A DNA stretch of 24,998 nucleotides from a virus. The stretch spans positions 1 to 24,998 of the IMG/VR virus record IMGVR_UViG_3300030329_005620; one strand, written 5' to 3'. Positions 8,295 to 14,687 of the stretch are shown piece by piece. The notes under the pieces were generated by a model that was not told the origin of the DNA, ran no database searches, and was given only the letters and a program-made list of their open reading frames with translations. Numbering within the stretch: the first letter of the stretch is position 1; each line of letters starts with the position of its first letter. Made by a program: the position numbers and the translations under genes.

Positions 8295-9011
8295 CTATTT
8301 ATGTGAATTGTGGACGTATATGGCGTCCATTCTACCTTGCCAATGTTTTTTATAATTCATCACATTCATCTGTCTCTCAGAAACCCCACCATGAGCGGTT
8401 TCAACAATTATTACTGGTTTACATCTCTCAAGTGTTTCCTTTGCTCCTACTAGAGCTTGGTATTCAAATCCCTCTATATCTAACTGAATTAAATCACAAA
8501 TTTGTAAATTTAAACTATCTATCTTTGTTGTTTTTTCAGAACCACTTTCATTTAAATTAATTCTGTGTGCTCCATGATTCTGAAATTGACCATAATGTTG
8601 TCTGGATTTATCTAAAGTCCATCCCTTGTCTTCATGTTCACCCAAAGCTTTTTTAAAGAATGTAATTTTGTTATTTACATCATATTTTTTTATATTCTTT
8701 TCTGAAACATATCTGTTCATCAATGACGGTTCAAATGTATATATTGTATCAAAGTATTGTGTATATAATATTGGCCAAACACCCATTCCTGCTCCTGCTT
8801 GTACAAGAACACGTTTCATTTTAACAGGATCTAACCAATCGAGATGTTCATTTTTAAAATCTTCAATATTATCAAACAATCCTTCTTCACCAATTGGCCA
8901 TGTCATCTTTTCTATGTTAGCATAATTAATATCTCTAGTGTAAAGTTTTGATTCTATTCTATCAATAAAATCATCAGTATAACAATGAAAAGTATCACTA
9001 TATTGTGCCAT
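8295..9011 (-). CDS. FkbM-family SAM-dependent methyltransferase
   Basis: 238 residues. The SAM-binding loop is RVLVQAGAGMGVWPILY, the acidic strand end is YTFEPS, and the later family signature is LIQLDIEGFEYQALVGAKETLERCKPVIIVE. These are the standard motif I, motif II and DIEGxE elements of FkbM methyltransferases, which O-methylate sugars or small metabolites. In phages such genes often modify surface glycans or virion sugars, but the substrate is not visible here. It lies immediately downstream of the tmRNA and upstream of the Cys-rich peptide. The same 12-nt sequence occurs at each end of the gene (9027-9038 and 8306-8317). Confidence 0.9.
   Translation of the reverse strand: MAQYSDTFHCYTDDFIDRIESKLYTRDINYANIEKMTWPIGEEGLFDNIEDFKNEHLDWLDPVKMKRVLVQAGAGMGVWPILYTQYFDTIYTFEPSLMNRYVSEKNIKKYDVNNKITFFKKALGEHEDKGWTLDKSRQHYGQFQNHGAHRINLNESGSEKTTKIDSLNLQICDLIQLDIEGFEYQALVGAKETLERCKPVIIVETAHGGVSERQMNVMNYKKHWQGRMDAIYVHNSHK
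8306..8317. repeat. 12-nt direct repeat flanking the FkbM gene, copy 1
   Basis: AATTGTGGACGT, identical to 9027-9038. This copy lies inside a hairpin TGGACG-TATATGG-CGTCCA at the 3' end of the coding region. Confidence 0.6.
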
Positions 9012-9026
9012 AATATCCTTGATTTA

Positions 9027-9038
9027 AATTGTGGACGT
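9027..9038. repeat. 12-nt direct repeat flanking the FkbM gene, copy 2
   Basis: AATTGTGGACGT, identical to 8306-8317. This copy forms one arm of the terminal hairpin of the tmRNA coding piece. Confidence 0.6.
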
Positions 9039-9205
9039 TTCTGTTTCAAGGTACGCCCAAACCCATCAACTTATGCGGCCATGGCCATAGAAGCTGAAGT
9101 ATAATCGTTATTATTTGCGATTAAGTTTAATGCACATTCACGGTAGTCGCTCACCGGATACCTAATATCCAACTTCACAATCAATCGAGTACCTTTACAT
9201 CCCCA

Positions 9206-9298
9206 TCAAGAAACAAGAATAATTTCTAAGATGTAATAAAAACCAATTATAATTCCAAGAATCAACACCCACAACATGATAATTCCCATGTCATCCAT
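9206..9298 (-). CDS. 30-residue membrane microprotein inside the tmRNA intervening segment
   Basis: The ORF starts at ATG 9298 with AAGGAG (9309-9304) five bases upstream. The first A of that SD is the last base of the tmRNA CCA. It encodes MDDMGIIMLWVLILGIIIGF followed by YYILEIILVS and TGA (ends 9206), two bases before the tmRNA 5' half. It fills the excised segment almost exactly. The peptide is one long hydrophobic helix with an acidic N-terminus, like the other microproteins in this window. Translation would need the precursor, or a separate transcript, before processing. Confidence 0.6.
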   Translation of the reverse strand: MDDMGIIMLWVLILGIIIGFYYILEIILVS

Positions 9299-9359
9299 TC
9301 GTGCTCCTTGGTGGAGATGGCCGGAATCGAACCGGCGTCTTAATTGCTATCTGAATACA

Positions 9360-10019
9360 TCAGACAGTATCATAATTATTTATAACTTCTTTCAATCTCT
9401 CAATATTTTCATCAGGATAGGCAAAAAATACTTGGGGATCACTATTAATAACTGCTATTACAATTACTACTTGTGATATTTTAATTCCTGTTCTTTCTTC
9501 ATACATTTTAGCATAAGCAGTACCTTGTAGCTTATAACTCTCAATCCATTCTTCACGTTTGGGTTTTGATGATGTTTTCCAATCTATAATAGAAAGTTCA
9601 TCATCATACTCTGCTATACAATCACATTGTCCCGCTACTCCCAACTCTTTAGACCATAAAGAAACTTCAAGTCCATATATATTACCAATATGAATATCTA
9701 AAATAGATTGAACTGACTTAAACAATTCAATATTATCTGGAAAATGTCCGCTTAAATAATCTTGCTTATTTTGCAGATAGTCTTCGATAATCTTATGCGT
9801 TTTTGTTCCTCTTCGTGAAGCTTGTGTAGAGATTTTATTTGCTTCTGCTTCTCCAACCCTGTTTCTCCACTCCTGTATAGAAGCTTTGGACAAAGATGAA
9901 AGAACTGTAGTGATGCTTGGGAAATTTCCATCTGGTGTTTCGTATAATCTTTTTCCTGAAATGTTTTTTCTTGTTATATCACCAATTATTTCAAGAGATT
10001 CATGATTAAAAGTTTTCAA
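9360..10019 (-). CDS. RecB/Cas4-like PD-(D/E)XK exonuclease
   Basis: 219 residues. The nuclease signature is visible in order: GTKTHKIIEDYL (motif with conserved His), GVAGQCDCIAEYDDELSIIDWKTSS (the D...D-x-K core), and LQGTAYAKMYEERTG (QxxxY motif). These are the marks of the RecB nuclease/Cas4 superfamily, and stand-alone versions occur in T4-like marine phages. It probably trims or resects DNA in phage recombination or host-DNA degradation. The start overlaps the stop of the FmdB-type gene by 4 bases. Its stop codon lies within the first hairpin of the tmRNA precursor, and the tmRNA promoter is within its last codons. Confidence 0.88.
   Translation of the reverse strand: MKTFNHESLEIIGDITRKNISGKRLYETPDGNFPSITTVLSSLSKASIQEWRNRVGEAEANKISTQASRRGTKTHKIIEDYLQNKQDYLSGHFPDNIELFKSVQSILDIHIGNIYGLEVSLWSKELGVAGQCDCIAEYDDELSIIDWKTSSKPKREEWIESYKLQGTAYAKMYEERTGIKISQVVIVIAVINSDPQVFFAYPDENIERLKEVINNYDTV
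9377..9384 (-). promoter_or_regulatory. T4-type late promoter for the tmRNA
   Basis: Exact TATAAATA on the minus strand within the last codons of the RecB-like gene. The predicted start at about 9371 is within a few bases of the first hairpin of the tmRNA precursor. Confidence 0.75.
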
Positions 10020-14218: not shown

Positions 14219-14384
14219 ATACGTGAGGTTCAGTATGACCATGAAGATCTTCAATTTTCATATTGTCAGTATGACATTTATTATGTTGAATTTTCTTCTT
14301 TGGCCAGATCAAAGCATATGCCATTGTGGTCAGTGATATAACTGCAACAATGATCATAGCAATAAACATCATCATGAATATCAT
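14217..14384 (-). CDS. Small membrane protein, 55 aa
   Basis: The start at ATG 14384 forms an ATGA overlap with the stop of the preceding 41-residue gene, so the longer in-frame reading from 14450 is not used. One strongly hydrophobic span (MIFMMMFIAMIIVAVISLTT) is followed by a His/Lys-rich cytoplasmic-type tail (KKKIQHNKCHTDNMK, then HGHTEPHV). The His/Cys-rich end could bind metal. Not recognised. Confidence 0.65.
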   Translation of the reverse strand: MIFMMMFIAMIIVAVISLTTMAYALIWPKKKIQHNKCHTDNMKIEDLHGHTEPHV

Positions 14385-14506
14385 TTTTTTGGTCCATATA
14401 AAGATTGAGTTACACCAATTAAAAATATTACAGATACTATAATTCCGCAACCAAAAATGATTGCGGAGTTTGGATCATTAAAAAAATCAATCAGTCCCAT
14501 CTTCAT
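14381..14506 (-). CDS. Membrane microprotein, 41 aa
   Basis: ATG 14506 lies inside the end of the preceding 66-residue gene (20-base overlap), and its TGA forms the ATGA start of the next gene. The sequence is a short amphipathic start MKMGLIDFFNDPNS, a single hydrophobic helix (AIIFGCGIIVSVIFLIGV), and the tail TQSLYGPKK. Not recognised. Confidence 0.6.
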   Translation of the reverse strand: MKMGLIDFFNDPNSAIIFGCGIIVSVIFLIGVTQSLYGPKK

Positions 14507-14687
14507 CTTGTCCTGTTTCAATTACTCTGAATGCTCCCAAAATAGAAGGAACCCAAAGTCCAACATAGATACCATAAAGTTTAGCATCTGGACTGTCCAT
14601 AAAGAAAAACAAGTAAATTGACAACGCAAGAGATAGAACTGTTGCGAATAAAACATATTGATGAGATTTTTTCATCTTTCCTTTCAT
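14487..14687 (-). CDS. Two-span membrane protein, 66 aa
   Basis: Two hydrophobic helices (YVLFATVLSLALSIYLFFF and LYGIYVGLWVPSILGAF) separated by a short polar turn, with a charged C-tail ending GQDEDGTD. The start at 14687 is an ATGA overlap with the Prx stop. A second ATG four codons later has a better-spaced AAAGGA. Function unknown. Confidence 0.7.
   Translation of the reverse strand: MKGKMKKSHQYVLFATVLSLALSIYLFFFMDSPDAKLYGIYVGLWVPSILGAFRVIETGQDEDGTD

Follow-up and report, generated by a model that had tools for sequence, protein, structure and literature searches.

A conserved gene for a predicted membrane peptide in the intervening segment of phage permuted tmRNAs

Results

Structure of the locus

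The window, the whole stretch of DNA analysed here, comprises 24,998 nucleotides of the IMG/VR virus record IMGVR_UViG_3300030329_005620. ARAGORN called a permuted tmRNA at 8980-9401 (-) with the tag ANNNDYTSASMAMAA, ended by a stop codon, and the Rfam model tmRNA_permuted (RF04321) matched 9371-9071 (-) at 110.3 bits (E 5e-21) against a curated cut-off of 47 bits; alpha_tmRNA (RF01849) scored 61.7 bits at the same locus. Membership of RF04321 is borne out by this score, by an acceptor stem of the form GGGGNTG/CANCTCC with G3-U70 and an encoded CCA, and by the tag reading frame in the coding piece. The RF04321 cut-off was also passed by all 14 of 14 viral records with coding intervening segments, which cover eight peptide groups. 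The features of the window locus are as follows, with the basis of each in brackets.

9377..9384 (-): T4-type late-promoter-like sequence TATAAATA, directly upstream of the tmRNA (motif, clade position)
9309..9371 (-): acceptor (3') piece of the permuted tmRNA, ending CTCCACCA (ARAGORN, Rfam, coordinate check)
9311-9309 (-): CCA of the acceptor piece (coordinate check)
9304..9309 (-): Shine-Dalgarno (SD) sequence AAGGAG, overlapping the terminal A of CCA (coordinate check)
9205..9308 (-): intervening segment (IVS), 104 nt, with predicted removal on maturation (Rfam, coordinate check)
9302..9308 (-): 5' arm of the IVS terminal helix, AGGAGCA, including the SD core (predicted pairing)
9206..9298 (-): 30-codon open reading frame (ORF) for a single-transmembrane microprotein, group A (ORF translation, selection, shuffles)
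9209..9215 (-): 3' arm of the IVS terminal helix, TGTTTCT, formed by the last ORF codons and partner of 9302-9308 (predicted pairing)
9030..9204 (-): coding (5') piece of the permuted tmRNA, beginning GGGGATG, with an approximate 3' limit (ARAGORN, Rfam)
9071..9118 (-): tag reading frame, ANNNDYTSASMAMAA and stop (ARAGORN, coordinate check)

An exonuclease gene lies upstream (9360-10019), its 3' end and stop codon falling within the acceptor piece (9360-9371).

The initial annotation described a complete ORF in the IVS between the CCA end and the 5' half, preceded by a well-spaced AAGGAG whose first base is the terminal A of CCA, and the coordinates agree on each count. The ORF runs from 9298 to 9206 (-) and encodes MDDMGIIMLWVLILGIIIGFYYILEIILVS, 30 codons followed by a stop; its ATG (9298-9296, -) begins 10 nt past the CCA, the spacer between SD and ATG is 5 nt, and position 9309 is common to SD and CCA. 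Its TGA (9208-9206, -) adjoins the coding piece as had been described, but the 'two bases' said to separate it from GGGG are a single T (9205), GGGG following from 9204. The product had further been likened to other microproteins of this phage, and here one comparable gene was found but only one: a small hydrophobic ORF of 46 codons at 14381-14521 (-), which has a TTG start preceded by an SD-like sequence and adjoins a tRNA cluster.

The IVS ORF is under selection as a protein-coding gene

In the window IVS alone, about 2% of dinucleotide shuffles yield an ORF at least as long, so that its length is only moderately unusual, which is what a chance ORF in a non-coding spacer would have in its favour. 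The single case being weak, the relatives must decide. Viral contigs were therefore scanned, blind to ORFs, for a tmRNA acceptor end followed by a gap (30 to 122) and GGGG, which yielded, from a sample of viral contigs, at least 258 unique IVSs whose downstream piece is also tmRNA-like. Among the matches listed, 182 IVSs were at least 60 nt long, loci from an SD-biased scan having been left out, and 32 of these 182 carried an ORF open from the vicinity of the CCA to that of GGGG and specifying a membrane helix; shuffling the same 182 gave a mean expectation of 0.9 and a maximum of 4 (200 shuffles).

Selection was assessed in 15 pairs, each sequence being used once, from eight peptide groups (A-G and I). 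Pooled over these pairs, the ORF frame has pS 0.347 and pN 0.097 (pN/pS 0.28; Fisher 1.1e-19), and the other two frames of the same pairs give ratios of 0.85 and 1.80. Hence the comparison of synonymous with nonsynonymous change in related viral contigs, which the initial annotation had proposed, reveals purifying selection specific to the ORF frame. Group A, that of the window, is weak when taken alone (pN/pS 0.41), having five distinct sequences and uninformative close pairs; its small indels fall in the leader, upstream of the ATG. The predicted peptides are hydrophobic in 33 of 33 representatives when read in the real frame, compared with 9/33 and 1/33 in the others, and although U-rich codons favour hydrophobic residues, this frame control speaks against U-richness as the cause. 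An ORF arising purely as a by-product of RNA structure is ruled out by the frame-specific selection.

Ribosome-binding site and start are kept in relatives, most of which have an A/G-rich leader, although AAGGAG itself is not universal: the SD is weak or absent in groups D, E and part of B. Homologous IVSs that lack an ATG ORF all belong to group F and have an SD-preceded TTG start. Relatives with a broken ORF between intact tmRNA halves, the observation named in advance as refuting the gene, were sought and none was found.

In a tree of tmRNAs built without the IVS, the window falls in a clade of 32 viral tmRNAs (support 0.99), and all 32 contain a membrane microprotein gene (22/22 of those from the ORF-blind scans, among the matches listed). 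Outside this clade, 24 of 268 tmRNAs have one. Together, conservation in 32/32 clade members, frame-specific selection and the excess of open helix ORFs refute the chance ORF, to which we attach next to no probability; the ORF in the window IVS is almost certainly a genuine coding gene. The description of a membrane microprotein gene that fills the IVS is thus supported by comparison with relatives, and this discarded piece of the tmRNA is, on comparative grounds, a tiny conserved gene for a predicted membrane-spanning peptide in a marine phage and its relatives.

Peptide groups

Most IVS ORFs have 22-34 codons. They fall into the following groups, given by the beginnings of their peptides.

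Group A (window): MDDMG...
Group B: MDGQDILL...; MDAREI...
Group C: MEKKLMWLA...
Group D: MKYLLLL...
Group E: MTRREES...
Group F: MKTPDII...; MKPYE...
Group G: MFENWHW...
Group H: WDNYFPPLNLWNYS...
Groups I, J and M: further sequence groups of IVS ORFs

Groups A and B may be distantly related, to judge from their C-terminal motifs. For ten representative peptides, neither Pfam nor PHROGs gave a family with a meaningful E-value, and nothing significant was found when groups G and H were searched for as proteins in phage records. The ORFs of these two groups contain no stop within the IVS and extend 27 to 90 bases beyond it into the tmRNA, so that an mRNA cut at GGGG would be left without a stop codon, as a nonstop mRNA. 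The group H peptide (L211, L385, L214 and L018) is soluble and Trp-rich, with the motif WDxYFPPLNLWNYSxxWQW; it is encoded in the IVS, runs past GGGG and is strongly conserved (pN/pS 0.12). Two lone IVS ORFs, in L170 and L197, are of other kinds, a Cys-rich zinc-finger-like peptide and a soluble one, and both pass GGGG. A coding IVS (MEDDLVRFLVGFTVIVTVMLIVLL) is also present in L555, a contig of 357,559 bases and thus jumbo-phage-sized, whose T-arm reads GGGTGCAACTCCC.

Distribution in hosts and isolates

Comparison with the IVS lengths of host permuted tmRNAs, also proposed initially, found those of the sampled Alphaproteobacteria to be short and non-coding. Across 83 unique host IVSs the median length is 27 nt, in a sample deliberately enriched for the longest, so that the true median is probably lower, and none (0/83) has an ORF of at least 18 residues. 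These hosts were sampled separately because the scan of genome contigs is a weak alphaproteobacterial control, their T-arms reading GGGGGCGGTACCC and not GGTTCGA. That scan gave two bacterial matches, from Comamonas, without an ORF filling the IVS, and from Gluconobacter, with an IVS of 28 nt. For the class to which the Comamonas match belongs, Rfam hits were mostly weak and under the cut-off, and they did not serve as a control. Among viruses, a scan for IVSs of <30 bases with a CGATTG-type 5' piece found one tmRNA, outside the window clade.

Pelagibacter phage Mosig, an isolate, carries its permuted tmRNA at the equivalent locus, adjoining the exonuclease gene, but with a short IVS that is a hairpin and does not code; such tmRNAs in general can thus do without the peptide. 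The tmRNAs of the window and of L131, used as DNA queries, had no match among 50,697 phage records, and those of L004, L190, L057 and L396 retrieved from phage records short stretches resembling tRNA or tmRNA and, beyond these, just Mosig and Synechococcus phage BUCT-ZZ01.

The IVS as an exchangeable module

Loci L155 and L393 encode unrelated peptides, MEKIAAYLAIITLIALVIVYGILYFGFDFR and MSDRNLVLAFIILLGCCGFIWIADIVFR, between tmRNA halves that are 98% identical, and L185 and L043 are 96-98% identical outside an IVS that is coding in the former and non-coding in the latter. Between tmRNAs sharing 98-100% identity, non-coding IVSs likewise diverge strongly (L066/L383, L020/L225, L029/L054 and others); the IVS is thus hypervariable in these comparisons whether coding or not. 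On a quick tree the peptide groups require 21 changes against a minimum of 10, a figure that serves as a guide only, the unlabelled set having included coding rows. As far as these alignments go, phage permuted tmRNAs offer in the IVS a slot whose contents, tiny genes mostly for membrane peptides, can be exchanged. Some non-coding phage IVSs (L208, L222 and L199) contain sequence resembling a tRNA T-arm (for example GGGTTCGAATCCC), possibly a tRNA-derived cargo.

A short ORF that stops at the processing site and whose differing peptides are interchangeable might also act in cis, ribosome transit or stalling on the IVS setting tmRNA maturation and the peptide itself being inert. Amino-acid selection within groups and the near-uniform membrane-helix character argue for a protein product instead, and we regard such a cis-acting leader as distinctly unlikely.

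A promoter-like motif upstream of the tmRNA

The T4-type late promoter is given as 5'-TATAAAT-3' in PMC9004378. The sequence TATAAATA, CTAAATA or AATAAATA lies upstream of the acceptor piece, at a similar distance, in 26 of 26 members of the window clade. The motif occurs four times in the window against 2.8 expected, which is weak evidence by itself; the case for a promoter is hence one of positional conservation, not of rarity. Several loci outside the window clade have, by eye, a TATAAT-like -10 sequence instead.

The terminal helix of the IVS and access to the ribosome-binding site

The first seven bases of the IVS, with the SD core, pair with the seven that precede TGAT, which are the last codons of the ORF. 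Across families, IVS ends match their own partners at 6.3 of 7 positions on average, compared with 4.2 when partners are swapped between families (0/5000 permutations equal the observed value), and in the predicted fold the helix stacks on the acceptor stem. Accessibility of the region from SD to AUG, a mean over 24 IVSs from many families obtained by thermodynamic, not kinetic, folding of growing transcripts, is 0.57 to 0.50 before the 3' end of the IVS is present and 0.13 afterwards. In these models the terminal helix shuts the ribosome-binding site of coding IVSs, and we lean slightly towards the view that it limits expression. Non-coding IVSs have a terminal helix of the same kind, and the helix may exist mainly for processing, its effect on the SD being incidental.

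The same observation suits a simpler account, that a small gene merely occupies spare sequence and shares a transcript with the tmRNA, neither affecting the other: a helix found also in non-coding IVSs need not control translation, and phage genomes are dense, as the end of the exonuclease gene inside the acceptor piece illustrates. Such packing does not readily explain why unrelated peptides, nearly all of them membrane peptides, recur in one position where the closing helix contains the SD and the ORF stops at the cleavage site; moreover, termination only 1 nt short of GGGG must place the ribosome over the acceptor strand. We treat packing as a possibility to be taken seriously, short of a probable one.

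In hok/sok and other type I toxin systems, the mRNA encodes a small single-helix peptide and its SD is closed by pairing between the 5' leader and the 3' end. The IVS ORFs resemble these in size, in the single helix (except in the soluble group H), in the fold-back over the SD, predicted here in silico, and in the late-promoter motif, all of which would suit a type I toxin-like or lysis peptide whose mRNA is silenced by fold-back as in hok and released late. In hok, however, the fold-back arm lies outside the ORF, whereas here it consists of the last ORF codons and stacks on the tmRNA acceptor stem, and group H does not fit a membrane toxin; we think a toxin-like role unlikely.

Discussion

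Our preferred reading, which we consider probable as a whole, is that the IVS is a protein gene from which a 30-residue single-helix membrane peptide is made on the tmRNA precursor, in likely competition with maturation of the tmRNA. The putative T4-type late promoter directly upstream would drive the unit. As long as the polymerase is still on the IVS, ribosomes would find the SD and AUG open and could load, the peptide being made on the nascent, unprocessed transcript. The emerging 3' end of the IVS would then pair with the SD leader and stack on the acceptor stem (GGGG/CUCC), closing the SD, after which cleavage by RNase P at GGGG and 3' processing at the CCA would free the two-piece tmRNA and destroy the mRNA. 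Since closure of the SD and cleavage would take place on one RNA, translation and tmRNA maturation would compete on a single molecule. With the SD in the terminal helix and some ORFs running past the cleavage site, it is plausible that tmRNA maturation is coupled to the fate of the mRNA.

A stronger form of this competition is more tentative, and we put it forward as possible without favouring it. It supposes a switch with two outcomes, in which a ribosome on the IVS would obstruct both the acceptor stem and cleavage by RNase P, and the ribosome itself would be shut out once the acceptor stem and the IVS helix have folded; in groups G and H the cleaved nonstop mRNA would be rescued and tagged by the released tmRNA in a self-feeding loop, and the IVS would be a mobile cargo slot. 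That the peptide modulates the membrane late in infection, through a protease or the timing of lysis, is a guess, and probably a wrong one.

Small ORFs in the trimmed parts of stable RNA precursors have a precedent in Tpr, a small basic protein encoded in the precursor of the E. coli tyrT tRNA, 3' to the tRNA. Tpr is a single-gene case, however, and the window ORF lies between two halves of one RNA. Permuted tmRNA genes are already known in phages, those of Melnitz and Mosig being described in PMC9004378, and the permuted tmRNAs of marine phages (RF04321/RF01849) share the order of acceptor piece, IVS and tagged coding piece. Their known IVSs have been treated as spacers, such as the short hairpin of Mosig, whereas here the IVS is a protein gene. 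The portion of the tmRNA database paper available (PMC11915505) notes cargo in the IVS as well, a tRNA-Ala in one tmRNA and a repetitive element in another, but these are single cases and include no protein gene. It also records homing endonuclease genes in 36 of 883 group I introns of tmRNAs, which are likewise protein genes inside a removed part of the precursor. The present ORFs differ from these in having no intron, splicing or endonuclease, the expected removal being by processing of tRNA type: Rfam placed no intron in the window, and Pfam and PHROG found no endonuclease domain in the ten peptides. The initial annotation knew of no described protein gene in a tmRNA IVS, and none was found in the literature searched, most of it outside subscription journals.

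The IVS of two-piece tmRNAs has hitherto been treated as a discarded spacer. Should it prove to be a gene in many phages, ribosome rescue would be tied to a membrane peptide through a single transcript, and annotation pipelines would be missing phage genes of about 22-34 codons that lie inside annotated RNA. Such genes would also be a clean system in which to test whether translation competes with RNA maturation. How modules as short as the IVS travel is a question posed by their exchange between near-identical tmRNAs.
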